A stretch of 64,000 nt of DNA from Plectrocnemia conspersa (Eukaryota; Arthropoda; Insecta; Trichoptera; Polycentropodidae), in assembly GCA_009617715.1 (NCBI GenBank), contig VTFK01000068.1:868001-932000 (forward strand). Reading direction: 5' to 3'. Every line of letters starts with the position of its first letter. The first letter of the stretch is position 1. This document shows, piece after piece, positions 4,828 to 51,014 of the stretch. The position numbers were made by a program, and so were the translations under genes. A model generated the notes under the pieces. It made no database searches. It was not told the origin of the DNA and saw nothing but the letters and a program-made list of their open reading frames with translations.

Positions 4828-5727
4828 TCAATGCGGTGGTACCATAATTCTGGCTTGGACGGAGCAGACTTCTGCCTGCACAGGGCCATAAGCTACCAAT
4901 TCGCCGTCGACTGTTATGTGGGCAGGATGTGTCGGATCCGGCTCAGGTTCTATACGGAAAGCATTAACGGGTATCAATTGAAGAGTACCGTTATTACTAG
5001 ATGCCCCATTAGCGTGAGCGCCGCTCCCCAGTCCCAACAGGAAACTTAGCAATTGTCCCCGCGTCGCTTCCCCTCTTATTATAACCAGCCAAATGATTCC
5101 ATCGTCTAACTTAGATTCGGGGGCAAAGATGCAATCTTCGCCCAAAAACGGTTGATAAGCGGCGTGAACTAAAATAAATTCTCCTTCGATGCACTTCCAT
5201 CCGTTCGGCGGAGGAGCCGTTAGAGCGGGTAATCTCGAAGCGGGGCCGTAAACTTGAACGGGAGTCTTTTCCTTGCCGTTTTCCAATCCTTTTTCGTCGA
5301 CGATGCTTCTGTAATCCGAACCGACGAGACTGAAATACGCGCTCTTTTTAGAAGTGGTCGAATACCAAGAATCTAATCTTGTTCTTTGCTCTTTTGGCTC
5401 TTCTTCGGCGCTGTTGTCTAAGGTGATGGTTGCGTTTGTTCGGCAATTTTCGCATTCGTCGCCGAGTTCGAAGCATTCGTTGCAGTCTACTATGCCGTCT
5501 TGGCTGAAGCTGTGGTTTAAGTAAGTAGATGGGAGTTTTACTGGCGATGTCACGTTCGAGACGGACACTGGAGAGTAGTACACCTTTCCTCGATAAGTAC
5601 GTAGGCCAATCAATCGAGCTAGAGACCAGACGGTGAACCTCTTTCCGCCTATGATTCTCAATCGTTCGCTTTCGATGTCAATATCGGAAAGCAGCCCCCA
5701 ACCGATTGACAGGAATGAGAACAGTAT
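4828..5727 (-). CDS. SphK: Sphingosine kinase, coding exon 3 of 3 (C-terminal half)
   Basis: This last exon supplies about 299 residues of the kinase. It begins after a TTCCAG acceptor at 5728-5733 in phase 0 and opens with ILFSFLSIGWGLLSDIDIES, the conserved sphingosine kinase block containing the WG..(S/A)D(I/V)D(I/L)ES signature. It continues with RFTVWSLARLIGLRTYRGK. The C-terminal conserved block is also present: EFILVHAAYQPFLGED, PVNAFRIEP, then VDGELVAYGPVQ close to the end. These features distinguish sphingosine kinases from ordinary diacylglycerol kinases. A variable, polar, Ser/Glu-rich insertion lies between the two conserved blocks, as is usual for the family. An open frame extends upstream past the acceptor to 5817, but it loses family similarity there and is intronic. 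Confidence 0.93.
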   Translation of the reverse strand: MLFSFLSIGWGLLSDIDIESERLRIIGGKRFTVWSLARLIGLRTYRGKVYYSPVSVSNVTSPVKLPSTYLNHSFSQDGIVDCNECFELGDECENCRTNATITLDNSAEEEPKEQRTRLDSWYSTTSKKSAYFSLVGSDYRSIVDEKGLENGKEKTPVQVYGPASRLPALTAPPPNGWKCIEGEFILVHAAYQPFLGEDCIFAPESKLDDGIIWLVIIRGEATRGQLLSFLLGLGSGAHANGASSNNGTLQLIPVNAFRIEPEPDPTHPAHITVDGELVAYGPVQAEVCSVQARIMVPPH

Positions 5728-6116
5728 CTGGAAAATAAAATAAAGACTTATTAATACATACTCATTGAATAAAAAAACATGATTTTTATATATTTTATGA
5801 CACATAATTGTTTTCATGGAATTTAATTGAAAACGTGTAATAATTTATTATTATTAAGAAACATGACTAGAAAGATATAAAAGATGACCTTGTGCCAATT
5901 CACAATCATATATTATGTTGCAAATCAACAGGACAATTGAAATACCATTTATTTATGGTAAGGAGATTGTGATGAATTTGTGTGCCAGTGGATCATCAAG
6001 CCATTTTATATAGCATTCAAATAGGCCTGGAAAGACAGTGTTATCAGCCGAGGGTTTAAATATATTAAAAAAATAAGAGTCTCTCTAGTTGCCAACCCGA
6101 CATCAACCGAACTGGC

Positions 6117-21753: not shown

Positions 21754-22262
21754 AAACGGACCTATCGGAGACGAGCTACTTTGGAAACATCATAAACAGG
21801 GCTTTTCCCCACCAACCAAGTTGCATCCGGCACGTGCCTCGACTACTATATAAGGAGGGTCACGGCCGGATCAAATCACTCTATCTTGGGACGCCAAGCC
21901 GGGAGGAACTCTCCCTCTACTCTTCATACTCTTTCTTGGGAATCCAAGCCGGGAGGAACTCTCCCTCTACACTTCACTTCTCGTTGGGAATCCAACTAGG
22001 GAGGAATCTCCTGCGTCACATCAAGAACTTCTGATAGGGAGGATTCTCCTTCGTCCCATCAAGAACTTCTGAATGGGAAGACCTCTCCCTCTTCAAGAAC
22101 CTGTCCACGTCCAGGAGGAGTCCGGAGCCTAGACCGTCCGCGCGTCTACGCTTCGTTAACCAGTCCACGAGCGACTTTTGTATCATTTTTACCGTCGAAA
22201 TAAACACATTTACAACCTACCTCTCGCCTATTTTAATAGTATCATTTATAACATGATATTTT
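21754..22262 (+). repeat. 5' LTR of the gypsy element
   Basis: Bases 21754-22218 align with 28834-29359. The LTR carries a TATATAA box, a region of imperfect tandem units around GGGAGGAACTCTCCCTC (21897-22090), and an AATAAA at 22199-22204. It ends directly before the TGGCGCAG primer site. The left edge is where similarity to the 3' LTR begins; I could not find a clear TG start or a target duplication. Confidence 0.8.
21847..21853 (+). promoter_or_regulatory. TATA box of the 5' LTR
   Basis: TATATAA lies in the conserved core of both LTRs (here and at 28925-28931), followed about 30 bases on by the GGCCGGATCAAATCACTC region where transcripts would begin. Confidence 0.6.
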
Positions 22263-22280
22263 TGGCGCAGTCGGTAGCAT
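22263..22280 (+). other. Primer binding site
   Basis: TGGCGCAGTCGGTAGCAT starts immediately after the 5' LTR. TGG matches the CCA end of a tRNA, and the sequence resembles the serine-tRNA primer site reported for 17.6/297-type elements of insects. The tRNA identity is from memory and unverified. Confidence 0.7.
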
Positions 22281-22571
22281 TCTGTCGGGATACGTCAAGC
22301 GGCCCGCCGCAAGCACGTTGATCGAGAATCTACACGGCGAGAGTTGGATAGTAATTGAATGTTTTGACTTTTCGAAGACTACTAATTCAGGAGATCCAGG
22401 AAGGAAGGAGGTCAACGACCTTAAAACAGAGCTTTCGACGTCCAGCTACACGAACACCCACGTACGAGCTGCCTAGTCTTGAGTCTGGAGCCTCACCAGT
22501 ATAACTGCGTGAGCTGAGAGATCGACACTTTTCGAACAATTTGATCTTCCGAACGAACTGTGAGTCCTTTT

Positions 22572-23744
22572 ATGTCTATCAAGGTTGCACATACACGCTC
22601 AAACCCCTCACCTTTATTTTTCGATATTTCAATTCCTGCCCCTTTAATTTCTAACAACCCTTTACCTGTAATTTCGAAGGAATCTGTACCTTCAATCGCA
22701 TCCTTTACAATGTCGATTGAGGAGTATATCCGTTTCATTCCATGCACGTTCAACCCCAAAACTGAAGATCTGAACGACTTCACCTTTTACTGTGACGAGG
22801 CAATTTCAAGTTGCCCGCCAGATTTATTACCTCGACTCATACGTCACATTAAGTTATCCATCACGGGGGATGCAAAACTTCAAATCTCCAGATTTACGAC
22901 GTATGAGGAGATTAAAACATTTTTAATTTCGACGTACAAGCGGAAGGTTAATCCCGTTGAACTCCGTAACAAACTTCATGGCGTAAGCCAAAATTCTAGA
23001 GAAAATGCTCGCGACTTCGCGATCCGCGTTCAAAATCTTTTAAATAGAGCGCAGGATGCTATCCCGGATGATACTCTTGCACCCGGTCGATTGGCACAGC
23101 TCGAAGAGACAGCCGTAGATTCTATCCTTACTGGACTTGAACCCCAGATAGGGAGGAGAATATTTCAGGGTAAACCAATGTCGTTAGAAGACATTTTCAA
23201 TCTTTTGGACGAGGAAGAGAGGTGGCCGGAGAGATATCCGACACCTGAGAGAAAACCACATTATAACAATGTAAACCCTAATTCGAATTTTAATAAACCC
23301 TTTTTAAATAATTATTCACCGCGTGATGCAAATCAACGCCCTACTTCTAAACCTTTCAATAATAATTATAATAATGTAAATCAACGCCCTTCTAACACTT
23401 TTAATAAGAATTTTGATTCCAATCAACATTCTTATAATAATTCTTTTAATAAAAATGCTAATTCTAATTCGTTTACTAGAAATTCTAACCAACGGTTTAA
23501 TCCTAATCCTAATAATTCTAATTTCGTTAGGAACCCTTATAGTAAAAACACCTTTTGTAATTATTGCAAAGATGAAGGTCATTTACTTGAAAATTGTAAA
23601 CTCCGTAGCGAAAGCCAGCTAAAACGCAATGCGAGAGTTAACCATTTAAACTTCAGAGTTCCCGAACCAACTGCCAGGCGAAGGAACAAAACTTTAAACC
23701 TATCGGCAGAATCCATTCAATCGCCCCCACGGGAACATTCATAA
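22572..23744 (+). CDS. gag: Gag-like nucleocapsid polyprotein of the gypsy element
   Basis: The protein would be about 390 residues from the first ATG; the frame is open from 22560. Residues from SIEEYIRFIPCTFNPKTEDL through WPERYPTPERK have the helical capsid character seen in gypsy Gag (a PxF.G....L..F block, then RGKxxxxAxxFL-like spacing). A long Asn/Ser/Phe-rich low-complexity stretch follows (23263-23545). One CCHC zinc knuckle, CNYCKDEGHLLENC (about 23556-23597), gives CX2CX4HX4C, which binds genomic RNA. The frame ends in TAA at 23742-23744. The pol frame is open in the -1 frame across the last 80 or so bases, so Gag-Pol is probably made by -1 frameshifting. Confidence 0.88.
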   Translation: MSIKVAHTRSNPSPLFFDISIPAPLISNNPLPVISKESVPSIASFTMSIEEYIRFIPCTFNPKTEDLNDFTFYCDEAISSCPPDLLPRLIRHIKLSITGDAKLQISRFTTYEEIKTFLISTYKRKVNPVELRNKLHGVSQNSRENARDFAIRVQNLLNRAQDAIPDDTLAPGRLAQLEETAVDSILTGLEPQIGRRIFQGKPMSLEDIFNLLDEEERWPERYPTPERKPHYNNVNPNSNFNKPFLNNYSPRDANQRPTSKPFNNNYNNVNQRPSNTFNKNFDSNQHSYNNSFNKNANSNSFTRNSNQRFNPNPNNSNFVRNPYSKNTFCNYCKDEGHLLENCKLRSESQLKRNARVNHLNFRVPEPTARRRNKTLNLSAESIQSPPREHS

Positions 23745-26700
23745 TAATTCAATGTTTAAACAACCCTAAACGTTCTTTACGATTCTTAATCGACACGGGC
23801 GCGGGCGTCTCCTTGGTAAGCCCCGAATCGATCCAAGATTTTCAGTTGGATCCAGAGGATACGGTGACCATAATGGGTATCACTAAATCTTCTACCCCCC
23901 CTAAAACCTTAGGTTCTACTTTTCTTACACTTTTACTCCCCGGAAAGCCGGAGATAAAACATCATTTTTATGTAATTTCTAAATCCGTTTCTAATTTACC
24001 ATTAGATGGAATCCTTGGTAATGACTTCTTAACAAAACACGGTATAGTGATAGATTATAAAGAAAACGTCCTTAATTTATACGGACTTAAGTATCCCCTT
24101 TTAGACCGTGGTCATGAACCTTTTGTAATATTAGAACCTCGTACTGAAACGTTAGTTTCACTTAACGTTTTAAATCCCGAAATTCAAGTCGGAATTATTC
24201 CCGATCAAACCATACTTCCAGGCGTATTCTTGTCTCGCGCTTTAACAAAAGTGACAAATTTCGAAGCACTAGCGACTATTTTAAATACAACGGAAACCCA
24301 CATAAGAGTTTTTCCCCTTTCCGTAACCCTTGAACCCTTTAATGAAGTCGACAGTGAAGAAATTTTATCGCGACCCCAACTATACGATTCGAAACGAAAC
24401 GTAAGTCTCGATAGTCAGTTGGATTTAGCACATCTTAATGAAGAAGAGCAACAGTCTATTCTTAACCTTTGCCACTCTTATAATCATTTATTCTATTTAG
24501 AAGGTGACGAGTTAACGCATACAAACTCAGTTTGCCATAACATTCCCGTTACGTCGCAAGTACCCATTTTTACTAAATCTTATCGATTTCCGGAGGTGCA
24601 TAAGCAGGAGATCGAAACCCAAATTCAAACAATGTTAGGTCAAGATATAATTCGGGAAAGCACTTCTCCTTGGTCCTCACCTGTTTGGATAGTTCCCAAA
24701 CGTAGCGACAGTTCAGGCGCTAAAAAGTGGCGCGTAGTCATAGACTACAGGAAGTTGAACAACGTCACCGTTGGCGATGCTTATCCTTTGCCCAACATCG
24801 CCGACATTCTCGACCAGTTAGGTCATAGTAAATATTTCACCACCTTAGACCTCGCGTCTGGATACCATCAAATTCCCATTTCTTCGGCCGACGCGGCCAA
24901 AACAGCGTTTTCCACCCCAAACGGTCATTTTGAATTCACTCGTATGAGTTTCGGCCTCAAGAATGCCCCTGCATGCTTCCAACGGTTAATGAATAACGTG
25001 TTAGCCGGCATTCAAGGTATTAAGTGTTTTGTATATTTGGATGATATAGTTGTTTACGCTGACACCTTACAAACTCACGATAGGAAACTTCGTGAAATTT
25101 TCCAGCGATTGTCGAAACACAACTTAAAGCTTCAGCCAAACAAATGTGCCTTTTTACGAAGAGAGGTGGGCTATTTAGGCCATATTATTACTGAGGACGG
25201 CATCAAACCCGATCCTGATAAAATTGTTTCTATCAAAAATTTTCCGATGTTAAAGAACATCCAACAAATTCGATCCTTTCTAGGATTAGTCGGGTACTAT
25301 AGAAAATTCATTCCGGATTTTGCGAAAATTGCTCGCCCTTTAACGTCCTTATTAAAGAAAGACGTACCATTCACATGGAGGGACAAGGAAGAGAATGCTT
25401 TCTCCCAATTGAAAATTAGTATAACTACTCCTCCAATTCTTAGTTACCCTGATTTCGAAAAACCTTTTATTGTCACCACGGACGCTTCAAACCACGCGAT
25501 AGGAGCGGTCCTTTCTCAAGGAAAGATCCCTAACGATCTTCCTATTTATTTCGCTTCGCGAACTTTAAACCCTGCAGAGACTAACTATTCAGTCACTGAA
25601 AAGGAGTTATTAGCCATTGTATGGGCTTGTAAACATTTCCGACCATATTTGTACGGGAGGAAATTTCAGATAGTTACGGATCATAAGCCATTAACTTGGT
25701 TGTTTAATAACAAGGATCCCAGTTCCAGGCTAATTCGTTGGCGTTTGAAACTGGAAGAATTCGAATACGAGATTGCGTATAAACCCGGCAAATTAAATGC
25801 TAATGCCGACGCTCTCTCTCGTTATCCTCCTGAAGTATCTGTAAATACTTTTTCAATTTTTCTTACGTCTGCGGACTTTAAACATTCTGATGAATCCTAT
25901 CAGGATTTCATCCAGTTTCATTATATGAACCGGAAACGGTTAAAATATAATTTTCGCGAGTTAAACTCCAACCTTTTAGATCGACAAGATCACATTGCAC
26001 ATTGCGTGTCGGGAGATTTAGAAATGTCAGCCGGACTAGCCGTAGCCATTAAAGAGAGTATTCCTAATTATAACGATTTAATTAGCAAACCTCATTCTTT
26101 ACACGAAACTTTACATTCGTCGTTAAATTCTTTTTATATTTTTCATGTTGTAACCAAATTAAATTTCTGGGATAAACCCACTTATCCAGATTTATTTTAT
26201 GCTTTGAAAAACTTACGTAGTGAGTTAGACAAACTTAATATAAAATCTATTTCATTACCGCGCCTTGGTTGCGGTTTAGACCAACTTAAATGGGAAAAGG
26301 TCAAACTCATTCTCCATTATATTTTTCGCAATTCTGATATTCAGATAACAGTTTGTCACAATCGGATAATCAAGCCGCTTCGAGGAATCATTCCTACTAT
26401 TTTATCTGAGTACCATAACTCCGTAGTCGGGGGTCATGCAGGTCAGAATCGCATGTTTAATAAAGTTTGTTTGAAGTATCGTTGGAAAGGTATGCGAAGA
26501 GATATATCAAATTATGTTAATCGATGTACATCATGCCAAACCAATAAAGTTCACCGACAACGAATGAAACAACCTATTGTGATCACCACCACAAGCGAAA
26601 AACCCTTTGAACGGATAGCGTTGGATATCGTAGGTCCACTTCCAATTTCAGAATCCGGTAATCGGTTCATTTTAACCCTTCAGGACGACTTAACGAAATT

Positions 26701-27427
26701 CACACAAGCATATCCTATCCCAGATCATGAAGCAGTAACCATTGCCCAAACTTTAACAACTAAGTTTATTTGTAATTTCGGCATTCCCGAGTCAATTTTA
26801 ACAGATCAAGGAAGGGAATTCACTTCCAACCTTTTCAGGGAAGTAGCCAAACTTTTCAAGATAAAGCGGGTGCAAACCACCGCTTATCATCCCGAAACTA
26901 ATGGAGCCCTAGAGAGGACCCATAGTACGATAAAGGATTACTTAAAACATTTTCTGGCACCTGATCAGACTGATTGGGACGAGTGGCTACCTTTTTCGAT
27001 GTTCAGTTATAATTCTACTCCTCACACGGCTACTAAATTCACCCCTTTTGAGTTAGTGTATGGTCATCCCCCATCACTGCCTACTTCAATAACTTCCCCT
27101 TCTTTTTCTTCTACGTATGATAGTTATGTAGAAAATCTTAAACTAAAATTAGTTAAATCTTTAGAGGTGGCTAGGCAAAACACCATCCATAACAAAGAGA
27201 AGGTTTGTACTAAGTACAACAAAACCAAAAAGTTACGTACCTTTAAACCAGGAGATTTGGTTTATTTGATTAATAGTGCCGGGAAGATAGGCACAGCAAG
27301 GAAGTTTAACCCAACTTTCACGGGTCCTTATGAGGTAACCTCAATAAACAGTTTGGTAAATATTTCCATAAAAGTGGGAAACAACATAAGACGAGTCCAC
27401 ATAAATAGGGTAAGATTAAAAAGATAA
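23741..27427 (+). CDS. pol: Pol polyprotein: protease, reverse transcriptase, RNase H, macrodomain, integrase
   Basis: This is a single frame, -1 relative to gag; its entry point upstream of 23744 is inferred. Protease: LIDTGAG with the aspartate codon at 23792. Residue numbers below count from 23813. Reverse transcriptase: WRVVIDYRKLN (306-316), LDLASGYHQIP (345-355), YLDD (408-411). RNase H: acidic residues D557, E598, D623, D666. Residues about 716-847 are a macrodomain (separate entry). Integrase: H-H-C-C zinc site from H874 (GGHAGQ) through CTSCQT (905-910), then the D,D35E triad D938, D998, E1034, and a GPY motif at 1171-1173. All catalytic residues are intact and there is no stop. It lacks an env frame downstream. 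About 195 residues separate RNase H from the integrase zinc site, mostly occupied by the macrodomain. Confidence 0.95.
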   Translation: MIIQCLNNPKRSLRFLIDTGAGVSLVSPESIQDFQLDPEDTVTIMGITKSSTPPKTLGSTFLTLLLPGKPEIKHHFYVISKSVSNLPLDGILGNDFLTKHGIVIDYKENVLNLYGLKYPLLDRGHEPFVILEPRTETLVSLNVLNPEIQVGIIPDQTILPGVFLSRALTKVTNFEALATILNTTETHIRVFPLSVTLEPFNEVDSEEILSRPQLYDSKRNVSLDSQLDLAHLNEEEQQSILNLCHSYNHLFYLEGDELTHTNSVCHNIPVTSQVPIFTKSYRFPEVHKQEIETQIQTMLGQDIIRESTSPWSSPVWIVPKRSDSSGAKKWRVVIDYRKLNNVTVGDAYPLPNIADILDQLGHSKYFTTLDLASGYHQIPISSADAAKTAFSTPNGHFEFTRMSFGLKNAPACFQRLMNNVLAGIQGIKCFVYLDDIVVYADTLQTHDRKLREIFQRLSKHNLKLQPNKCAFLRREVGYLGHIITEDGIKPDPDKIVSIKNFPMLKNIQQIRSFLGLVGYYRKFIPDFAKIARPLTSLLKKDVPFTWRDKEENAFSQLKISITTPPILSYPDFEKPFIVTTDASNHAIGAVLSQGKIPNDLPIYFASRTLNPAETNYSVTEKELLAIVWACKHFRPYLYGRKFQIVTDHKPLTWLFNNKDPSSRLIRWRLKLEEFEYEIAYKPGKLNANADALSRYPPEVSVNTFSIFLTSADFKHSDESYQDFIQFHYMNRKRLKYNFRELNSNLLDRQDHIAHCVSGDLEMSAGLAVAIKESIPNYNDLISKPHSLHETLHSSLNSFYIFHVVTKLNFWDKPTYPDLFYALKNLRSELDKLNIKSISLPRLGCGLDQLKWEKVKLILHYIFRNSDIQITVCHNRIIKPLRGIIPTILSEYHNSVVGGHAGQNRMFNKVCLKYRWKGMRRDISNYVNRCTSCQTNKVHRQRMKQPIVITTTSEKPFERIALDIVGPLPISESGNRFILTLQDDLTKFTQAYPIPDHEAVTIAQTLTTKFICNFGIPESILTDQGREFTSNLFREVAKLFKIKRVQTTAYHPETNGALERTHSTIKDYLKHFLAPDQTDWDEWLPFSMFSYNSTPHTATKFTPFELVYGHPPSLPTSITSPSFSSTYDSYVENLKLKLVKSLEVARQNTIHNKEKVCTKYNKTKKLRTFKPGDLVYLINSAGKIGTARKFNPTFTGPYEVTSINSLVNISIKVGNNIRRVHINRVRLKR
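25958..26353 (+). other. Macrodomain of OARD1/TARG1 type inside the gypsy pol frame
   Basis: Seen in the sequence: after RNase H the translation runs LNSNLLDRQDHIAHCVSGDL, MSAGLAVAIKE, YIFHVVTKLNFWDKPTYPDL, then ISLPRLGCGLDQLKWEKV and IQITV. Known of the family: OARD1/TARG1 and Poa1p-like macrodomains show HC(I/V)S.D..MGAGIA, (L/V)(I/V)TK......PTY, MPR(I/L)GCGLD.L.W and (I/V)TV in this order. In human TARG1 the ITK lysine (K84) and the GCGLD aspartate (D125) are catalytic for removing ADP-ribose from glutamate. Both positions are kept here (K782 and D823 counting from base 23813). One deviation is SAG in place of the usual GAG. The role in the element is inferred: ADP-ribose binding or removal, perhaps opposing host ADP-ribosylation, or chromatin targeting next to the integrase. 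Confidence 0.85.
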
Positions 27428-28833
27428 CTTTTCTCGTACCTGTCCTATTTATGATGAACCCTAGTTATTCTCACGATCAAATGTTTTTGTATCTCTATTT
27501 CATTACTTTATAAGCATCGTCTTTATAATGTTCTTTGCTCCAACTTGAGTAAAATTATTCTTAATCTCATTTTCTTATTTTAGAGATTAATCCTTTTATG
27601 AAGTTCACGGCAGGAGGCCTGAACCATTTCATTTCATTTTTATGTCATCATCGATGATCATCCATACGATGGATAAACCTTCGTATTCAATTCGTTCAAT
27701 TGAGCTTTTAATTTGTTTTGTGACATCGGTCATAGCTGGATCAAGTCTTGTAACCTGAAAGGAGGTTAAATGTAACCCTGACCTGCGAGTCGGAGGTGAT
27801 TCGGTGTAATGTTTGAAAAGATATTTTCCCCTATCTTGTTCATTCGGAGAATTTTGTAACCCTGACCTGCGAGTCGGAGGTGATTCGGTGTAAAGTTTGA
27901 AAAGATATTTTCCCCTATCTTGTTCATTCGGAGAATTTTTGGGTCTTAATTTCTGTCTTTCGATGTAAAGAAGGAATTTTATTTGTAGCCAAGGAAGAAG
28001 TCCTGTGGTGATTCGTAAGTTGATCCAGGTGATTCGTATGTTTACGATAATTATTTAATTGTGAAATTTATATTTGTCTGATGACAATTGAATTATTTCT
28101 TTATTTTCATGTTCTGATAAAATGAAAATCCTTTTCTTTTCCTTTTCCTAATCCTGAGCGATTATTCGTAATTTTGGTGGATGTCTGAGGACATTCGTAT
28201 TATTAATCTTAATGATTAAATTTTTCGTATTTTATTATGTTTAATAAATACATTTTCATGTTTACAATCTTAGCGATAATATTTCGTTGTAATCGTATTG
28301 TAATTTCTTATTATAATTGTATTCTATTCGTAAGATTCATTATAGATCCTACCGATCAAATTGTATAATTGTAATCGCAATTGTAATTTTTATTATATTT
28401 GTTTATATTTCTAAGATTCCTACCGACACGATGTCGCGTAACTGTAATCGTCATAATAATTGTTTTATGTTTTATAAATCTTTCTATGTTGTATACTTGT
28501 GAATTTTCATTGTATTTGAAATCGCATTTATAATTTTTGTTATACCTGTACTATTGTAATTTAATTATAATCCTACGGTTTAAAATTTCGTATACCTGTA
28601 ATCGAAATTATTTTTACACTTTTATATTTCTATAATTTTCTATGTTCGTAATTGTGATCGTATTTGTAAAACGACCGTTTAATTTTCATATTTTTGTACT
28701 TTGAATTGTACTTTCAAATTTTTGTATTTTCTGTGAACGGAGAAACTAAGCTCCAGAAGTTAGTTTCGTCTTGGGCTCGGAGGTGTTATAATCGTACTTC
28801 GACGCGCCACGTTTCGATTCATATCCATGCGCG
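27428..28833. other. Noncoding spacer between pol and the 3' LTR
   Basis: This 1.4 kb has no env-like frame. It begins with sequence still of pol-like base composition, includes an 84-bp tandem duplication (27771-27938), then becomes T-rich with repeated ATTGTAATCG/TATAATTGTA-like words. A purine-rich GGGCTCGGAGG just before TGTTATAATC (28785) could be the polypurine tract and the true left edge of the 3' LTR. Confidence 0.5.
27771..27938 (+). repeat. 84-bp direct tandem repeat, two copies
   Basis: TGTAACCCTGACCTGCGAGT ... ATTCGGAGAATTTT occurs twice with a period of 84 bases and almost no differences. It sits in the element's 3' noncoding spacer, where errantivirus-like elements often carry regulatory or insulator repeats; that role is only a possibility here. 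Confidence 0.9.
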
Positions 28834-29359
28834 AAACGGACCTATCGGAGACGAGCTACCCACACCCAATCACAGAAGGGCTTTCCCCCACCAACCAGTT
28901 GCATCCGGCACGTGCCTCGACTACTATATAAGGAGGGTCACGGCCGGATCAAATCACTCTATCTTGGGACGCCAAGCCGGGAGGAACTCTCCCTCTACTC
29001 TTCATACTCTTTCTTGGGAATCCAAGTCGGGAGGAACTCTCCCTCTACACTTCACTTCTCGTTGGGAATCCAACTAGGGAGGAATCTCCTGCGTCACATC
29101 AAGAACTTCTGATAGGGAGGATTCTCCTTCGTCCCATCAAGAACTTCTGAATGGGAAGAACTCTCCCTCTTCAAGAACCTGTCCACGTCCAGGAGGAGTC
29201 CGGAGCCTAGACCGTCCGCGCGTCTTTTTTGTATCATACGCTTCGTTAACCAGTCCACGAGCGACTTTTGTATCATCATAATCTATTCCGAATTTACCGC
29301 AAAATCCCTCAAACTTCAATGCCGAATTTTTACCGTCGAAATAAACACATTTACAACCT
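28834..29359 (+). repeat. 3' LTR of the gypsy element (shared core)
   Basis: It aligns with 21754-22218 at high identity, including the TATATAA box and the GGGAGGAACTCTCCCTC repeat units. It carries two insertions absent from the 5' LTR: about 12 bases near 29226 that duplicate the neighbouring TTTTGTATCAT word, and about 50 bases near 29275-29325. Past 29359 the sequence no longer matches the end of the 5' LTR. A minus-strand frame across it (29137-29460) has no recognisable features. Confidence 0.8.
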
Positions 29360-37440: not shown

Positions 37441-37750
37441 CATATATCAAATTCATAAAAACAACCATTGGTGTTGTGTGAATTACAATGGGTACAGGGT
37501 ATACCATAATTAAATTATATATAAATAATAGGTAAGAAGTCTAATTTTTGCTATTAAATAAATTGGACCGCAGTGAATTCAATAAGAAAAAATATATAGG
37601 TTATACTTAAAAAAGGTATATAGGGGGGCAAATTTGTCCTTTTACCTCAGGTGACAAAAAGTCACGGCTCTATTGGCCGTGATATCACACATGATCACAA
37701 AGGAAATAGTGAAAATAACGCTGTGTTTTTATAATAAATAAATATATTAC

Positions 37751-38625
37751 TCATAGATGTGGCAAATGGTCCTGGCGAGGCCGTTCCCGGAACCGCAAGG
37801 TATGACTCCCAGGGGCAGCTCCTCGAGCACCTGCTTCCAATCGGACCTTTCGAACAGGCCGTTGAGGATCTCGTAAACTATCCCGTCTCCTCCTACGGCG
37901 ACTATGCCCCTCCAGCGATACAGATTGTGCTCGCGGACGAACTCTCTGGCGTAATCTGCTTTCTTGGTGACGTGCAAGTCGTACGAGACCTCAGCCTCTG
38001 CGAAGAGAGGAGCCACAGTTTTCTGAAACTGCTCTCGAGCTTTGCCGGAGCCCGACTTCGGATTGAGCAGCACTAGAACGCGTCGGTCGTCTTTGGCCGG
38101 GGGTGCAGCCGTCGACACGGGGCGACCTTCGATCAGACACCTGACCGCGTGCCTCCACTTGAGCGCCTCCCTTTGGTTGTCGTCGAAGCGATCGAAGGAC
38201 CGGAAGCGGAGCGCCAGCGTGTTCCTCTCCCTGCGCCCTCCTCGAACGCCTCTCTTCAATTTATACGCGTACACGTACAAATAAGCCGAGACGTCCGAAG
38301 ACTCGGGCTCGGTGTCGTCGCCTTCGTTCTCGTCCGCTGAGGGGGCACCTTTCTTGCGGCCGAGGGCAGTGCAGGCGCACGCGCCCCCTCTCTTGCTCGA
38401 TTTGGCTCTGGAGCACCTGCATCCGACCATATCCCGAGCGGAAATCGAGCGCTCCTTCGACGCCCCGTCTCCTTCCCTTCTGAGGCTGAGCCCCTTGTCC
38501 GTCAGTCTGACTCGAAAGGCCGCGCTTCGCTTGTTCAGGACGTAGAACGTCTCTTCGAGGTGCACGCTCTGAGGCGGAGACTCGGGCGGGGGCTCGACGG
38601 CCCCCGCGGACGCGGACGCGCGCAT
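37751..38625 (-). CDS. SphK: Sphingosine kinase, coding exon 1 of 3 (N-terminal and catalytic lipid kinase domain)
   Basis: Sphingosine kinase phosphorylates sphingosine to sphingosine 1-phosphate using ATP. The full chain is 624 residues over three minus-strand exons, close to the insect Sk1/Sk2 size. Exon 1 gives residues 1-291. A GC-rich, charged N-terminal part (about 1-180) has an Arg/Cys-rich low-complexity stretch. The diacylglycerol-kinase-like catalytic domain starts at RRVLVLLNPKSGSGKA (181-196), with the GGDGIVYEILNGL nucleotide-binding loop (245-257) and GVIPCGSGNGLA (273-284). The start at 38625 is the first ATG after an in-frame upstream stop. The exon ends TATGA before a GTAATA donor (37750), in phase 2. 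Base composition is strikingly GC-rich against its surroundings. The start lies 1.7 kb from, and divergent to, the tudor-like gene. Which insect paralog this is, Sk1 or Sk2, I cannot tell. Confidence 0.93.
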
Positions 38626-40310: not shown

Positions 40311-43300
40311 ATGTACGCGACTCACGCGGAGGGCGACGGCCCTTTTCTGCGAATATGGGTGCAGCCGGACGCGCGGCGAGCCTCCGTCGTCAGCAACAAG
40401 TTAGAGTGGGCTACGCGTTCTTTGCTGGAGCAGCCGCCGCCGCATCTAGCTCTGTTGAGACCCGGCGTATGTCTAGCCGCGAGGCGCTCCAACGAGCGAT
40501 TCTACAGGGCGAAACTGGTGGCGCCCCCGCAACCGCCCGCGCCTCTACTTTTGCACTTTGTTGACTTCGGCTTCGAAGACGTCGTGCCCCCCGAGGACGT
40601 GCGGCTCTTCGACCCCAGCGATCCGCTAGTGACGGAACCCCCACAGGTGATCTGCCCTTGTCCATTGTGTAACATTCCGATAAAAGCTTAGTCCTCTAAA
40701 CATTTTATTGCTGTTAGTATGCTTTTCTATTGACGCTGGCATTCTTCCGGTACTCTTTCATTGCTGATATATTGGAAACAATACTATAGTAATTGATTAC
40801 TGAATCTGAGATTTCCACTTCAACAATGGCCATTTAAAAAACAAGAATTGCGCAATAGTCGCAGACTTAAGCCGGTTTCACACATGCCGGATGGATTTGC
40901 CTGGCACGTCTGAAATGGTAAGTACTAGCCCATACAACACCACTCCCACTACACGACGCCGGCCCGGTACTGGGCAAATCCATCCGGCACGTGTGAAACC
41001 AGCCTTACGAAAGTCATTGGTACTTTCCTATTATTTTATTGTAGAAAAATGTTCATTTGTTTGTACATTTTATTTATATACGATTATAAATTACAATTTT
41101 TAAGTAGACTCGTTACAGAGTTATTCATTCGCTGCCGCCGCTAGCAAAACGTTAGTCGTCAAAAAGTAAAAGCCGACTTTAAATAATGAATCTGAACTAA
41201 ATTACAGTTGTTTGAGATGTATTTCAGGTATAAGTTCCTTCAGCCCTTTTTATACATAGCAGAACATTGCCTTCAAAAGCATCCACTTTCTAGGTAGTAC
41301 TTCCACAATAAACATTATTCAAAGGGACAGATTGTTGCTTTTTGACGCGGCTCTGTTTGTGTTAAAATTTGTTTGCAAATTATTGTTGAATTTATTGCTT
41401 TTTGAACATTAAAAAAAAATTAGACATGGGAAGAAATATTCAACGAATTAAATTAGTAGCTGTAAATTTAAGTATTCAATCTCAATTTTCAGATTGAATA
41501 CAAAGTCAACAACAGCACCAGCCGAATTATATAAATTGAATGTTTTTATAGATTGTATTATCGGTAATTTGACAACTGGATTTAATGCAGCAAAATAAAT
41601 AAATAATACATTCAGTTTCATGTAGTTATTCCTAAAAGAAAATATAGAAAAAAATAGTCGAATCTATCCCGAAAATATTTTTTTAAATATGTCACTTCAG
41701 TAAAATAATATCGGAATACATATTCACCAGTAAATATAGATTTTTACCAGTGAAAATATAAATTATCTGGTAGATGCTAGTAAAATTATATGATTTTAAC
41801 TTTTCTATATGTTAATTGCTAAACGCCATTTGAAGTTTGTTATACTTATTTTTTAAATCTGTTTCTGAATTCTTTGCACCTCTTGTTATCAGCCAGTTGA
41901 GATAATATTTTTGTATTACTTTTTGATTATCAATATTTTACATATACATATTTGGCAAATCTGACTACAGATAAGAAACCGTCGACACGACATAATTTTT
42001 TTATAACACAACTATTATGACAAATCTTTTTATATCTTTGTAGGCATCTGAATTATTACTCAGTCGAGTGATACACCCTCACGGCGCTTGGGATCCTCTA
42101 CAAATAGACGAGCTGCGAAAGCATATTTTCTTAAAAGAATTAGTGTGCACTATCGAGAGACAAGTCGGCGGTCGCACGCTAATAGGCATCAGGATTGAGA
42201 ACGAAGATCTGTCTGAGTTTCTCACCTGCCGCAGAATGGGAGTAGCCGTGGACCCCGATCGACAAGTCGCGATGCTGGCGGTTGAGTTCGAAGCGGCCAG
42301 AGCTCCTTCTTCGAGAACGTTGCCTTCACTCCAGGCCAAACTCACCAAGAATGTCCGTCCGCCTCGACCTCTCAACAAGCTTCCTGAAGAATCACATTCG
42401 AACCCTTCGTCTTACAGGTGAGGTATTTGTCCCAGAAATTTATATGAGAAAAATTGATAAGATTTTACTATTATATATAATTACTTGCAGACCCCGTCTT
42501 CTAGAAATCGGTTCTGAACACGAAGTGCGCGTGTCTCATGCCAAAGATGGCCCTGAGCTATTCGCCGTGCAGCTCAAGAGTGATACCGACGCTTTAGCGA
42601 CGGTGATGAAACGCGTGAGCACCCTGCCCCTCGAACCGTTATTGTCGCCGCTGGCCGTCGGCACTGTCTGTCTCGGCAGGTTTTCCCCAGACTCTCCGGT
42701 GTGCCGCGCCATCGTTACAGGCATTACGACCTCTCGATGTATGCTCTTTTTCGTCGATTATGGCACGACCGATTTCGTATCCAGCAACGATGTCTACCGC
42801 ATTCCCGAAGATCTCATCGTCCCGAATGTATTCGCCCTCAGGTTCAGCCTATCCGGACTCAGGAGTTGTATCGTGTCCGATAAGGTTAAAAAGATGTTCG
42901 CATCTGCAGTCGAGGACAGAACGCTCACTTTGAGAGTTGTGGCGCCCGAAGGTGCGCCGATCTTACAATACGGAGAGCTTTATTTGAACGGACATAACCT
43001 ATTGGACACGATCCGCGCCGCAGACCCGCTGAATCTGCGCTATGTCGAAATATCACCGTCCACTCTAGCTGGAGATCATCGCGTGTTAGTCTCTTTCGTC
43101 GACAGCTGCACTAAGTTGTTCGTCCAGCTGCTTCAATATTCGGACGAATTACATATTATAATGGAAAAAGTGCAAGAACACTGCGCTAATACTCCATCGC
43201 TCACATTCTGCGATCTTAAAGTCGGAGCAGCTTGTTGCGCGCTCTTTTCCGATGATGACAGATGGTACCGAGCTCGTATAGCTAATATAAAGAAAGACAG

Positions 43301-46300
43301 AGCGACTGTCATTTACGTAGACTATGGAAATGAAGCTGAACTTTCCGTCGATTGCTTAAAACCCATAGACCCTTCTCTGTTGAAGCTGAAAACTCAAGCT
43401 ATACATTGTGCGTTGAAAGGTTATGAAGATAAACCGTTCGATGCTGAAGTGTCAAACAGACTCGAATCCATGACGATCGAGACGACATACAATATGAAAG
43501 TACAAGGAATGATCGGAAATGATGTGCTACTTGTAGAGCTAATCGACCAATCTGTGATGCCAGCGGTCAGTGTCATACCAGCTGGCAATGAACGAGCCTA
43601 AAGTTACTCCCGAGCCAACGGTTAGCTTTACTTTATGTACATACACATTGATACTTTGTAATCAAATTTTAGTAGAAATTACTTACAATTTCCAGGTCTC
43701 GCAGACTCGTTCAAATGTAATCAATCAAATGCCGAATTATGAAGATCAAACATCATATGAAGATGTACCAAAATACAAATCAAATAATGACAAGCGAAAT
43801 AAAGAGTGAGTATTATACATTAATCTTATTCTATATATAATTGTAATTATATAGATTGGACACTGCGTTTTTAATGGAACATGTTGTTGCTTACAATAAT
43901 CAGTGTTACAAAAGCCATCGCAGATATGTTTTAATAATTAGCTTTTGAGAAAAAAAAACAAGTTTTTCAGTGCAAGGCAAACAATTCGAATAGTTTTTGA
44001 ATACTAAATTATTTAAATATAAAGATTTTTTTTGCTGCTCGATTGAATGCATTATAAAAATACTAATAATTCATTGATTTGATTCATATAAAATCAAATC
44101 AACCCAGATTTTTAATAAATAATACTGTTATATTCTATTCATAAACACAAATAGACGAGACAACAATAACATAAACATTGTTTGAATATTATAAAACTAA
44201 AACATTTTACAGGAATACGTATGACAACCATCACAATCGACAACGTTCTCAAGAGTTCAACGTTAAGCCGCGGTTTGATAAGACCCAAAATAGTCAGAAT
44301 AGACGGAGGGAGCCACGGGACACAAACAGAAAACAGTTCTCCTCATCGGACTCTCAATCGTATAAGCCTAAATCTCTCTATCCGCAAAAAAAAAGTCAAA
44401 GCGATACTTCTCAGTTTGAAAAAAGGAACCATCGGTATTTTCTTCGTAGTCGCCTGCTCTTGCTGCATGTTAACACACCTACGCCTTGATTATGATTTTA
44501 ATGTTTTTATATCCTCGTATCGGTTATGGTTCTGTTTGAATTTCGTTTTTAGTGTTGCTTTTTTTCTGGTTTTTTCATGTGTTGTGGCAATTTAATCCTG
44601 AGACGCAGCTGCATTACAGACTGGAGTTGAATTAGATTAAAAGTAAATCAATTTGAATTTACGTTGGATATGAATGATTATTTTTTTGCACTACTTTAAT
44701 TTACTTTAGAATCTGTAGATGTGAAGAACACAAATTTTGTAAAACTAAATTTGTATTTTTATTATAATTTATCACACCCTTTTTTTATTAAAAAATGTTT
44801 TATGTGGATATAAATATGGTCTTTATACATTACATTTTTATACCGTTCACGCGTTTTTGCGTGATAGCGAAACTCGACATCTGAAAAAAAATTTTTTTTC
44901 GCAAAATTTAATCCCCACCTCAGAAATTATAGTTATATTATTATCTTGCTAAGGTTGCCCTTATTTTAAAAGAAATTCACGAATTTATAAATTCATCTGC
45001 TAATTTTTGGCGTTCTGGTTACGAGCACAAAAACGGCGAACTGGATAATATAATATCTATCTACGCAGTAGTTACGAGAGAGATAGCTAGCTGTCGACTT
45101 TGCCAATACATAAAAAAATTAATCTAATTTTTCTCGAAATGGTCATTTGTTGAGTTCGCCCTTTGTACTCTGAAATCCTCATATATTTAAAATTGTAATG
45201 TGTTAATAGGTACCAATGAATGTTACTTCTCAAATCAGTTACGTCTGTGGAGAGCAACCCAGAATATTACAGAATCCGTTGTTAATGCATAGATTTAAAA
45301 AATTGAATTTTTTAGACCTACAGATAGTGTAAACTTAAAATTCGGCAATTCTCGCCAATATATTGAATTTCGGCAACCAAAGTAAATGAAGAAAAACTGC
45401 AATAAAAGTGTGTGAGTGATATTAATGTTTCAAAATAAATGGATATTTTGAATACATTTTTTTGTCAATTCAAGAGTTAAATTGCTACACCAATATGTAA
45501 ATTAATAATATTTAACATGTATGTAAATTGGGGAGACTTTAAAATTATTAGGTAGATGTGTATATTTTTTTATAACATATATGCATAATCTCTGCAAATA
45601 AATATAGATGCAGTTGAATGTAATAATATAGTTTATATTCTTAAATGTAAAATAATATACATATGTAGATTGTTCATTCATATTTTGATACAAAGTAGCC
45701 CCTATTTATGATTTTTTTTACTGATTCTTTTTTGGTTCTTTATTAGTTCTTCTACAGTCTTACACAATTGCTTTGAACGTTTGCTTTTAATGATATTTTT
45801 TAACTAATTTATTAAATTATAATATATATTTTCTATATTTCAGAGAAAGAGATTATGGAAATAGTTATAATAAAGAGTCAAGAGAATATGGGAATAGTTA
45901 CAATAAAGAATCGAGAGATTATGGTAATAACTATAATAAAGATCGGAGAGATTCGGGCAGTAACTATTCTAGGGATACACGAGAATCGAGAGACTCCGGC
46001 AGCAGTAACTATCCGAAGGATAGATATAATAATTATAATAAATCCAGTACGAATGACTATCGGTCGACCAAAGTTAGAGGTATGGACGGACAGGACAGTT
46101 CAGATTATAAAAGCAGACCTCCAAAGCCGAGAGCCCAACCCTTAGACGATCCAGCACCGCTCGATTCGACCTTCAAATCTTGCGTGCCGGAGACACCTTA
46201 CGAGAGCAACGTTCGAGTATCGTGGCTGTTCAATCCTCTTTGCTTTTACGTCCAAGATATTTCTCTGTTAAACCAACTCGAACAGATGATGATGAGCATA

Positions 46301-49300
46301 CCAGCGGAGTATAAATACGTTCTACCAATCAGCGAGTCCGTTCCGGTCGGATCATCCGTTTTGGCGCAGTTCCCCGAAGATAAGGTGTTATACAGAGCAA
46401 GAGTGACGGACTCGTCGTTCTCGCAATACACTGTAGATTTCGTCGACTTCGGTAATTCGTGCGAAGTAGACAAGAACAAGATTTGGCAGTTGGAAAATAA
46501 ACATTTAGAATTGCCAGCGGTCGCAGCCAAATGTTCGCTTAAAGGCATCGCTCCTATAGGCGGTAAATGGTCATGGGATAACAGAGAAGATGAGTTTTTT
46601 AACAAGGATAGTTACAAGTGTACTTTTCACAACATTCAATCTGACGATTGCTATGTGGTGTCTATGTTAGATAGTAGCGACGTAGGCATTGACGAAAGAT
46701 TGCTCGAATCCGAATTGGTGATTCTCTCGGATACGTCTGATCAAACTGCCGTTGTTGATGATTTGAAACGTAAGTTTGATATTCATAGACTAAGATATGT
46801 TATATTGTTTATAATAATTATTTCGATAACAGTTACAGTGGAGCCTGTGGACTTTGATATGGCTATCGGACAATGTTTTTATTCAAACGTTAACCACATT
46901 GAATCGTTGTCTAAGTTTTATATATGCCTTGAACCTCCGAGAAACACCGCCGATTGCAATAACATTAAGGTAGGTTTATTTATAATATCGACAATGTCAT
47001 TGATTGTCGTATAACTTATCCGTGTTTACAGATTGCAGAAGATGCGACTATTTATACGAACCAATATATTGAATGTTCTTATGCTGAATTTGATCCTGAA
47101 AACGCAGATCATAATTCCATGAATCAAGAATTTAGAAAGAACTATCAAAATAAATTTGTTATATCGTATATCAATAACACTGCAGATAATCGGTAAGATT
47201 AAATCTAAAATGGTACAATTGTGTTTTAGTTATCTTTGTTGGCTCTAACAACTAATCTTTTAGAAATCTACTAAACCTTAATCTTTCATTAATCTCATTA
47301 CGTTGTAATTTATTCCATGCTAGCTTTTGTACCTGATTACTAATAGAGATGCATCATCCCCTAAGTTACATTGAATGACTATCGACGAATAACGATCTTT
47401 TCATTCCATTTATTAAGAGCCAAGCTTTCGATTCGCAGCCTTTATCAGTATTTTTTATTTGCTGGAACATTTGACTTTAGATCAAATGAAGAAATACTAA
47501 GATTTTGTATTCTGCTTTTAAGAATAATATACATAGTATCATTATTTTATATATTTTTATTGCAGATTTGCAGTTACTCTCTACAATGCAGAAGATGGTC
47601 GGATAATTTATAACTTCACAAATGATAATTCGTTCGATAATGTGCCGGCAGTTAGTCCTTATCCCATTTATAATAAAATGTTTGGTCTCGCCTTTGCTTC
47701 ACACGTGGAGTCTGAGAATGAATTGTATTTGCAAAGATCTTCTGCAGTAGATAATTTGGCTGCATTGTTGGAAAAGTTGTTTATGTATTATGAAAACAAA
47801 GGTATAGTTTCTAATGGCTTGCAATGTAATATATTATTAAATTATAATTGTTTTTTGTATTGCAGATGCTGGTACGTTTATAACACCGAATATCGAACAA
47901 TTATGCGCTGTTAAATCTTGCGACGGTAATTGGTACAGGGCTAAAATTTTACAAAAGTTTCCCACGGAATGTCAAGTGAAGTATATTGATTACGGAAATA
48001 AAGAAAGCGTGCCTTTGCATTTGATAGACGCGCTACATCCCCAATTCTTCAGCATCAGTGAAATGTCGATCCAGTGCAGTCTCGGGGTTTCGCCATTCGA
48101 AGTGGACTTGGAAAAACTTCAAAAGCTGCTGTGCAACGGAGAGTTTACAATTGAACTGTCTATCGACGAGACCGGCTGGGTGTCGAATGTAACGATGGAC
48201 GGTGCGAGTATTTTAGATATGGTCAAGATAGATAAGCCGAAAGACGATCTGCCTAAACTCTCCGTTTATATAACGCACATAGACAGTCCGGGACAGTTTT
48301 GGTTACAATACGAATCGAATCTCGACGCTATACAAGCACTGATGGCGCGACTTCGGGAAGAGGCTGTCGATTATGAAAATTTGGTCGATCACGAAATAGG
48401 AAAGATGTGCATCGCCAAATATTCGGCTGACGAAGAATATTATAGAGCGATCATATTGGATTCGGACAGCGATATCACAACGGTGAGATTCATAGACTTT
48501 GGTAATACGGATGTTTTGAACAGCGATTCGAACGCATTCAAAATGCCTCCCGATGATCTAATCAAACTTCAGTCTTATGCTATTAAATGCAGCGTTAACG
48601 CTTCTCCTGCTGGTATCGGAGAATGGACCGAACAAGCTACAGAACTGCTCACCAAATCAATCGGTGATAAAAACGAACCAATAAACGCAATAATCATTCT
48701 CAAAGATGCTCTCACATATGTGGACTTGTTCAATAAGGAATTGAACATCACCGACGCGTTGGTCAAAGCCGGCTTCGCAACGCCTGCTGAAGTACAGCAA
48801 AACGGCACACTACCGACGTGCTTCGCCAGCCATGTTAATTCACCGTCCGAGTTTTGGATTCAATTGGAAAGCTCCGTAAACGATCTTGAATTAATTTCCG
48901 ATCAGTTGATTGACGCCGAAAACTTTTTACCAATCGGCGATTTAGAAGAGGGTGTGATATGCGCTGCTAAATTCCCCGAAGACGAATCCTGGTACCGTGC
49001 TAAGATAATCATCCACGGTTCTGAAGGCACCGAAGTCTTATTCATGGATTACGGAAACGCTTCTCTAACTAACGATTTGAGGAGCTTACCTGAAAATCTA
49101 AGTTCGTTACCCGCTTTATCCAGAAAATGTGCATTGCAGAAACCTGTTTCTATAGACAATTGGTCTAAAGAAGCCGAAGCTAAATTTGTAGAAATAACAG
49201 CGGAAGGTGCGACTATTTTCCAGATTACTTTTATTGCTTCCGGTGATATATCGATCGTCGATTTGATCTATGAAGGAAATTCTGTAACTAACGAATTGGT

Positions 49301-51014
49301 GAAATTGAACCATCCTCAAGTTAACGCTATAGATGATGTAGAAATCAGTTTAACCGAAATGCAGGTGCATGTAAGTCAATGTCGCGGACCTGATGATTTT
49401 TGGATTCATCCAAACACGAGTTCCGATAAACTTATCATTATAACGAACGTCTTGATTGATGCGGAATCTTTCCCGGCTTTGGAAGAACTGGTAGAAGGTA
49501 TGCTATGCGTGAGTCTCTTCTCCGAAGACAACATGTGGTACAGATCAAAAGTGATCGACATCGGTGAATCCGGTATTGAGGTTCTACACATCGACTATGG
49601 CACCACAGCCATCTCGAAAGTTTTAAAAGAGATACCCGTTGAGATAAAAGAGATTCACCCATTGGCTATACATTGCTGTTTATCCTATTGTAAAAATATG
49701 ATATTCGATAAGAAAAATCATGAAAAGTTCGCTGAATTAGCAGCTAAGAGATCGCAAGAATATAAAATGAAGATTGTCGATTCAAGCAGCGATCCAAAGT
49801 TGGTATCGTTGTTTGTTAAAGAATCGGATGAAAACGTCAATATTTTGAATTTAATCGGTATACCTGAAGATAAAGTCGATTTTTATACTCAACCCGAATT
49901 AGAAACTGAAGAAGGATTTATAGAATTCACCGATATAGAAGATACTTATGAGGAATGTATTACTGTGGAGAATGTTGCTCCTGATTTGAAAGATGAAGAA
50001 GACACTTTAAAAATCGATCAAAAAGACACATCAGATTATAAATCTATTAATAGCAGTTCAGACGAAACTCGTGTATGTGATGCAAACACTGAACATGATT
50101 GTGAAGATAAGACAGATTCAGAAGTCGATCTTAAAATAAAATTAGATCTAAACGAACAATCGGCAGTAGAACTCGAAGATTTGTTAGAAATAGTTCCCGA
50201 TTTAGATTCTTCTGTAGAAAATATTGTTGAAGAAGAAGTAGTTATTTCCGAAGATACTGATTCAATGAGTCCCAAGACGTATTTAAAAAATGAATCGAAG
50301 TCGGGTAAAGAAGATGATCCGGAAGATCAGTCAGCTATAAAAAGCGACGATTCAGTAGAACTCGAAGATTTGTTAGAAATAGTTCCCGATTTAGATTCTT
50401 CTGTAGAAAATATTGTTGAAGAAGAACTGGTTATTTCCGAAGATACTGATTCAATGAGTCCCAAGACGTGTTTAAAAAATGAATCGAAGTCAGGTAAAGA
50501 AGATGATCCGGAAGATCAGTCAGCTATAAAAAGCGACGATTCATTAGGAAAAGTATCCGATCTGGATAATTCGGCGGAAAAGTTTGTCGAAGGAAAACCA
50601 GTTTCCTCCGAAGAGAGCAGCTCGATGAGTTCTAAAGATAATATATATGCAAATGTGACGACCGAAGATGACACTTGCGAGAGCGACTCGACAAGCTCAA
50701 AGAATAATTCAGTCTTATTGGAGAAAGACAAAAATAAGGATGATACGATCGAGACCGATCTGACAAACTCAAAGGATAATTCGCTTCTATTGGAACAGAG
50801 CATCGATTCTACAGATATTGAAGAAACTCCAACTTTCCTGGAAACCAATGGCAAAGTTTGCAATAATGAATCATTTAAGAACGACTTAGATAGTTCCAAA
50901 AACCAGTCAGTTTTGGATAAAGACGATGATATGAGTGTTACAAAAGATTCTTTGAATAATGAATTATTGCAATCTACAATTGACGCACATGACACTACGG
51001 AAAAGAAGGCTTAA
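40311..51014 (+). CDS. tud: Tudor-like multi-Tudor-domain protein (ten coding exons, 2241 residues)
   Basis: Tudor proteins bind symmetrically dimethylated arginines on PIWI proteins and organise germ granules. Exons: 40311-40646, 42044-42417, 42491-43565, 43696-43805, 44213-44434, 45844-46769, 46833-46969, 47032-47192, 47566-47801, 47866-51014; phases agree and the sum is divisible by three. Eight Tudor cores of the form L..G..C.A.F..D..WYRA.(18-22)VDYGN are seen at about residues 50-100, 290-340, 477-530, 872-922, 1200-1250, 1369-1419, 1551-1601 and 1733-1781. Exons 4-6 encode a polar Arg/Ser/Tyr/Asn-rich linker with tandem RDYGNSYNKES units. After residue 1800 the protein is an acidic Ser/Asp/Glu-rich tail containing a 63-residue duplication. 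Drosophila Tudor has eleven domains, so this may be a shorter ortholog or a TDRD6/15-like paralog. The weakest splice site is the exon 5 donor (CG|GTATTT). Confidence 0.88.
40869..41006. mobile_element. Short inverted-repeat element (MITE) in tudor intron 1
   Basis: AAGCCGGTTTCACACATGCC, continuing GGATGGATTTGCC, is mirrored by GGGCAAATCCATCCGGCACG, continuing TGTGAAACCAGCCTT. The arms are about 33 bases with few mismatches, and the whole element is 138 bases. No clear target duplication was found. The 70-residue frame starting at 40891 lies across it and is spurious. Confidence 0.85.
41640..41810 (+). repeat. Middle fragment of the 0.75-kb dispersed repeat family, in tudor intron 1
   Basis: The words TCGAATCTATC, TTCACCAGTAAATATAGATT, TTTACCAGTGAAAATAT and ATCTGGTAGATGCTAGTAAA parallel 20690-20800 in the same orientation. 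Neither end is preserved. Confidence 0.65.
45844..46030 (+). repeat. Tandem coding repeat of 10-12 codons at the start of tudor exon 6
   Basis: The translation repeats as RDYGNSYNKES, REYGNSYNKES, RDYGNNYNKD, RRDSGSNYSRDT and RESRDSGSSNYPKD, decaying toward the 3' side. It makes a flexible Arg/Ser/Tyr/Asn linker between Tudor cores 3 and 4. Such regions are often targets of phosphorylation or promote condensates; that is inference. Confidence 0.8.
46770..46832 (+). other. 63-nt stop-free, frame-preserving intron in tudor
   Basis: GAAAC|GTAAGT on the left and ATAACAG on the right are good splice signals. The length is a multiple of three and there is no stop, so an unspliced transcript would add 21 mostly hydrophobic residues between the fourth Tudor core and the next segment. 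Splicing gives DDLKLTVEPVD, which reads as the native sequence. Confidence 0.7.
50166..50543 (+). repeat. 189-bp (63-codon) tandem duplication in the acidic tail of the tudor-like protein
   Basis: Copies 50166-50354 and 50355-50543 encode VELEDLLEIVPDLDSSVENI ... SKSGKEDDPEDQSAIKSDDS with only a few differences. A third, strongly diverged copy (LGKVSDLDNSAEKFVEG) follows. The near-identity of the first two implies a recent in-frame duplication. Confidence 0.95.

Follow-up and report, generated by a model that had tools for sequence, protein, structure and literature searches.

An OARD1/TARG1-like macrodomain within the Pol polyprotein of a Ty3/gypsy retrotransposon

RNA viruses are known to encode macrodomains that undo ADP-ribosylation. 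Among retroelements, fish epsilon-like endogenous retroviruses (ERVs) carry macro-domain open reading frames, according to a review (Basta et al. 2009, as cited in PMC4977317). A second accessory enzyme, dUTPase, is described in PMC1224870 as lying within pol in non-primate lentiviruses and N-terminal of the protease in betaretroviruses, and the places listed for it in retroviruses and LTR retrotransposons include one between reverse transcriptase and integrase (PMC5408684). The cellular enzyme most relevant here is TARG1, in which K84 acts as nucleophile and the lysyl intermediate is resolved by D125; PMC6397177 also gives the TARG1 pattern TKx(30,35)Px[IL]GxGxD and names Y150 and L152 as C-terminal residues. 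Within the literature searched, whose scope left most subscription papers outside, we found no description of a macrodomain inside a Ty3/gypsy pol. A preliminary description of this DNA knew of no such arrangement either; it had, however, left unnamed two precedents visible in these sources, the macro-domain frames of fish ERVs and the dUTPase of lentiviral pol. Here we describe a conserved macrodomain, with its catalytic residues, in a retrotransposon Pol. Its presence there suggests that retroelements, or their integration, are likewise subject to ADP-ribosylation.

A macrodomain in the pol frame of a gypsy-type element

The window, the whole stretch of 64,000 nucleotides that was analysed, contains a Ty3/gypsy-type LTR retrotransposon on its plus strand, in which LTR-like repeats at 21754-22218 and 28834-29359 flank gag and pol frames. 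The first repeat is the matched part of the 5' LTR, with 452 of 460 aligned bases identical to the second (93.9% over 446 by blastn, gaps counted). The two LTRs are unequal. The 3' LTR likely starts with TGTTATAAT at 28784 and would then span 28784-29359; about 50 bases of this likely start have no counterpart in the 5' copy or elsewhere in the window, the 3' LTR holds 12 and 51 bases more than the 5' LTR, and the outer ends differ. At 22263-22277, TGGCGCAGTCGGTAG, read directly in the sequence, is primer-binding-site-like and presumably resembles the site of 17.6/297.

The gag frame (22545-23744) contains a CCHC zinc knuckle, CNYCKDEGHLLENC, and a weak Retrotrans_gag match (E 0.0017, under the Pfam cut-off). 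The pol frame (23642-27427) is shifted by -1 relative to gag, overlaps it by 103 nt, and includes an open reading frame of 1204 aa (23813-27427). The protease, with approximate limits 23780-24080, was recognized by eye from its LIDTGAG motif at 23786; Pfam reported no protease on the piece 23813-24712, which begins behind this motif. Then follow reverse transcriptase (RVT_1, 24719-25189, Pfam E 2.3e-39), RNase H (RT_RNaseH, 25451-25762, E 6e-43), the macrodomain (25946-26368), the integrase zinc domain (Integrase_H2C2, 26390-26551, E 1.8e-18) and the integrase core (rve, 26597-26893, E 1.1e-12). A gag with a CCHC knuckle followed by the order PR-RT-RH-IN is that of Ty3/gypsy elements, protease and knuckle being assigned by motif alone. 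From 27428 to the 3' LTR there is no ORF of 150 aa or more, hence no third frame (env) of that length, and Pfam lists no chromodomain family for the piece 26381-27424. Two head-to-tail units of 84 bp, 99% identical, occupy 27771-27938 between pol and the 3' LTR.

On either side of the element lie minus-strand stretches matching DAGK_cat (37750-38625) and YegS_C (4831-5817). Because these bracket it, the element probably lies within an intron of a host gene resembling a sphingosine kinase, where we infer both a single gene and its name. Host coding stretches with several Tudor domains are found on the plus strand at 42282-51014.

The preliminary description had placed an OARD1/TARG1-like macrodomain in an unbroken pol frame at 25958-26353. 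The domain is indeed complete and in frame, with RNase H upstream and Integrase_H2C2 and rve downstream, and the four sequence blocks by which it had been recognized are all present in the order given. The coordinates were correct to within one strand, the first strand beginning at about 25946. Pfam Macro matched above its threshold (26.3 bits, cut-off 22; E 7.7e-6), human OARD1/TARG1 chains aligned to query residues 26-149, almost all of the domain (E 1.8e-23), and an AlphaFold2 model built from a 19-row alignment (mean pLDDT 84) adopted a macrodomain fold. With Foldseek, the eight best PDB matches of this model were all TARG1/C6orf130 (4j5s: E 1.2e-12, TM on target 0.87, 32% identity), and the first other protein was the DarG macrodomain (5m3e) at rank 9. 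Family score, TARG1 alignment and TARG1 fold match together rule out a chance motif match. In a viral structure library, the top match was VP8 of Kadipiro virus (31% identity), and the first eleven matches included several proteins of thrips-associated virga-, negev- and flavi-like viruses.

Equivalents of the ITK lysine and of the GCGLD aspartate are both kept in the window copy, as had been claimed: the lysine of V-T-K, corresponding to human K84, at 26156-26158, and the aspartate corresponding to D125 at 26279-26281, with the roles that PMC6397177 assigns to them. The TARG1 pattern is matched by the window, L004, L005, L006, L007, P0002 and P0005, and is missing from the element loci L003 (lysine lost), L008, L009 and L014 (truncated or broken). 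Except for the fragment L003, lysine and aspartate are kept in every element macrodomain examined that spans both sites. Eight of eight tested pocket positions show no variation among four element lineages (window, L004, P0002, P0005), as compared to 31 of 136 columns overall; these eight are also constants of the whole family, which makes the p value of this contrast no more than indicative, and C33, an alanine in P0002, is excluded from the count. The C-terminal residues corresponding to Y150 and L152 are unmatched, the window having ITVCHN, L004 ITICSN and P0002 ITICYN. ITVC or ITIC hence occupies the Y150 site in three of the four lineages, and the aligned piece of P0005 ends at KVI.

Other copies, phylogeny and selection

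Searching the window's own genome (393 Mb) for the macrodomain gave at least 13 matches at at least 12 loci. Three of these are host OARD1-like copies, seemingly split across exons, which neighbour each other at G000:C484:847885-868088 (L010, L011, L013); L013 has VVK and GCGQN at the catalytic motif sites and may be inactive. Nine loci are non-host, the window's included, and seven of them (C728, C694, C935, C185, C692, C434 and one on C725) adjoin reverse transcriptase, RNase H, integrase or protease stretches of the window element's family, as do, in other words, six of the eight loci outside the window. At C515 and at the other C725 locus, no stretch of this family lies within 1.5 kb. The C185 copy has a broken macro frame and no RNase H match, and among the copies examined the window's alone has its macrodomain in a frame open across all pol domains.

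Of 441 candidates in a search by the macro part of a pol piece of 800 residues, one matched: P0002, a protein of 513 aa from another contig in which macro, H2C2 and rve follow each other as in the window (Macro score 20.3, just under the cut-off). P0002 and the window are identical at 67 of 131 positions in the macrodomain (51%), 25 of 54 in H2C2 (46%), 70 of 99 in rve (71%) and 81 of 163 in the C-terminal part. With the domain alone, 17 of 35 candidates matched, including P0005 (macro then H2C2). Neither P0002 nor P0005 shows the RNase H side. Scanning IMG/VR with the window piece gave one distant match, L001 (32%), and scans with P0005 and P0011 gave zero. A one-copy, assembly or chimera artefact, against which the preliminary description had cautioned, is excluded by the further genomic loci and by the macro-integrase order of P0002.

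In a macrodomain tree of 27 rows, the window, L004, L005, L006 and P0002 form one clade (support 100/99), to which P0005 is weakly attached (37/50). The three host OARD1-like copies cluster with shark OARD1 and P0013 (85/86), so that the element macrodomains stand as a clade separate from the host's own. A recent capture of the host OARD1 is therefore not favoured; the test did not, however, reject a clade uniting the five element rows with the three of the host (p-AU 0.116). For the copy pair L004-L005, the macrodomain evolves much like the integrase, with dN/dS values of about 0.2 (NG86: macro 0.21, H2C2 0.20, rve 0.22; YN00: 0.19, 0.34 and 0.24, respectively), and the window compared with the decayed fragment L003 gave 0.15 (NG86) and 0.18 (YN00) for the macrodomain. 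Four of nine comparisons were valued by both methods, the other five being saturated or without a value in one or both. An integrase search yielded 91 matches, 30 of which were taken as loci; nine of these loci were kept out of the tree: eight partial, duplicate or part-missing loci, and L024 with a stretch of less than 100 residues. The resulting integrase tree has 22 rows, and one group of it (100/100) unites five relatives that bear the macrodomain with four that do not. Thirteen other gypsy elements of the genome fall outside this group, and tblastn over 1.5 kb per side found no macrodomain at any of these.

A second placement was found. In P0011, the macrodomain is followed by a protease-like DTGA seen by eye, Pfam reporting Macro alone. 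A search with its macro region matched 14 of 71 candidates, P0011 included; of the 10 matches scanned, P0022, P0025 and P0027 (by its source's name from the beetle Exocentrus adspersus) match both Macro and a retroviral-type protease; for Macro, P0022 scores above the Pfam cut-off, P0025 (21.9) and P0027 (18.1) below it. P0011, P0022, P0023 and P0025 form a separate clade of the 27-row tree (94/91), and P0027 is unplaced. A single capture for both placements, represented by an 11-row clade, was rejected, though on weak evidence (p-AU 0.034). By this weak test on sequences, retroelements seem to have acquired TARG1-type macrodomains on two or more occasions. In P0023 and P0024, kin of the protease-group macrodomains, a TARG1-type domain ends a low-complexity protein of 350 aa with a putative retroelement origin. 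P0029, from the thrips Frankliniella fusca by name, combines a TARG1-like start with an OSK/GDSL match under the Pfam cut-offs; since retroelements carry GDSL ORFs (PMC5408684), it may be element-derived.

Natural losses of the macrodomain

Near-identical copies with and without the macrodomain coexist in one genome. L017, L018, L019 and L020 are macro-less, and their DNA before the macrodomain is 98.2-98.8% identical to that of macro-bearing L016. Three of the four share an in-frame absence of 471 bp, which a DNA search also revealed at C167, bringing its loci to four; the absence in L019 is a distinct one and measures 456 bp. In total, the subfamily comprises at least five macro-less loci (C164, C633, C296, C167, C858) and at least four macro-bearing ones (C694, C692, C935, and C725/L007 by macro DNA alone). 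L019 retains a remnant of the last strand of the domain, EITICSN, which rejects gain rather than loss for this copy; for the 471-bp type, loss is preferred as the simpler reading. The close kin thus appear to have lost the macrodomain twice through in-frame deletions, of 471 bp at four loci and of 456 bp at one.

LTR-like repeat pairs accompany the macro-less copies L046 (98.1% over 206 bases), L047 (90.4%, 177) and L049 (97.5%, 275), and were absent from L048, L050 and L051. Macro-bearing L045 has no PR/RT match, and its 74.8% repeat of 413 bases is unlike an LTR pair. Two losses, together with macro-less copies that have LTR-like pairs, suggest that the macrodomain is not essential for every round of movement; the elements would have continued inserting without it, unless they had help in trans from macro-bearing copies. 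L016, L017 and L018 have completely identical proteins across the H2C2+rve stretch that was compared. This identity and the five macro-less loci disfavour an essential role such as that of an integrase tether. The coexisting copies make up a natural experiment, in which the function of the domain can be tested.

Possible roles and comparison with known systems

The best explanation, and a moderately probable one given the sequences and the structural model, is an accessory ADP-ribosyl hydrolase module that counters host modification. The preliminary description had suggested either a counter to PARP-type host defence or guidance of the adjacent integrase to ADP-ribosylated chromatin. A Ty3/gypsy lineage took up a TARG1-type segment in the linker that joins RNase H to integrase, as place, family and clade show. 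Fold, pocket and purifying selection point to a domain that most likely still folds and would remove ADP-ribose through the lysyl-intermediate chemistry of TARG1. Synthesized within Pol, it would be co-packaged with reverse transcriptase and integrase, and would strip ADP-ribose that host transferases place on Gag, Pol, element DNA or nearby chromatin. This assumes an ADP-ribosylation defence against LTR retrotransposons in the source animal. A precedent acting by another route comes from mammals, where SIRT6 mono-ADP-ribosylates KAP1 and silences LINE-1 (PMC4695847), and the viral structural neighbours (Kadipiro virus VP8 and the virga-, negev- and flavi-like proteins) fit a counter-defence use. 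Against this explanation count the two in-frame losses, the LTR-like repeat pairs of macro-less copies, the lack of a Y150 match, the lost lysine of L003 and the restriction of a fully open pol frame with macrodomain to the window's copy among those examined. The two clean losses would suit a module useful in some hosts or at some times and dispensable in others, like retroviral dUTPase.

The position of the domain directly before the integrase zinc domain, its intact pocket and the missing chromodomain would suit a reader: ADP-ribose on damaged or PARylated chromatin would be bound, and the adjacent integrase steered there, with no need of catalysis. Binding does not require the catalytic lysine, yet lysine and aspartate are both kept outside L003, and macro-less copies with an identical H2C2+rve protein exist; we regard such steering as unlikely. 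DarG, the next structural match after TARG1, acts on thymidine-linked ADP-ribose, and a nucleic-acid role has been proposed for TARG1 itself (PMC9967889). The element enzyme might likewise clear ADP-ribose from ends or bases of its own RNA or cDNA, which in our analysis would be a variant of the hydrolase explanation with another substrate, and to which we give little weight. Tolerance of the 471-bp and 456-bp deletions is what would be expected if the fold were kept merely to space RNase H from integrase, its chemistry being irrelevant. This is highly improbable, since lineages that are about 50% identical still retain the catalytic pattern and the pocket, and since spread continues after loss of the spacer, which argues that spacing is not the constraint. 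Returning to the counter-defence hydrolase, a wider proposition can be put forward only tentatively, as we doubt it somewhat more than we credit it: ADP-ribosylation might be a recurrent host brake on invertebrate LTR retrotransposons, answered at least twice by TARG1-type hydrolases placed in Gag-Pol in the same two slots as dUTPase, with gain and loss tracking host pressure.

With human OARD1/TARG1 (C6orf130; 4j5r/4j5s), the window domain has in common the fold, the catalytic lysine and aspartate, the Px[IL]GxGxD loop and a length of about 140 residues. The human protein is a standalone cellular enzyme, whereas the window domain is internal to a retrotransposon polyprotein and has no C-terminal tyrosine. 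dUTPase is likewise an accessory enzyme domain with comparable slots, but fold and reaction differ. In non-primate lentiviruses, its exact place is between RNase H and integrase. Macrodomains whose fold matches that of the window domain also occur in polyproteins of alphaviruses and virga-like viruses; these are RNA viruses, however, and the listed alphavirus macrodomains align to the window's at 12-18% identity. The fish epsilon-like ERVs represent another capture of a macrodomain gene by a retroelement, although, by the description in the review, their macro frames are additional open reading frames of vertebrate retroviruses and not part of a Ty3/gypsy pol. Finally, P0022, P0025 and P0027 also have a TARG1-type macrodomain beside a retroelement-type protease, but there it precedes the protease, whereas in the window it lies between RNase H and integrase.
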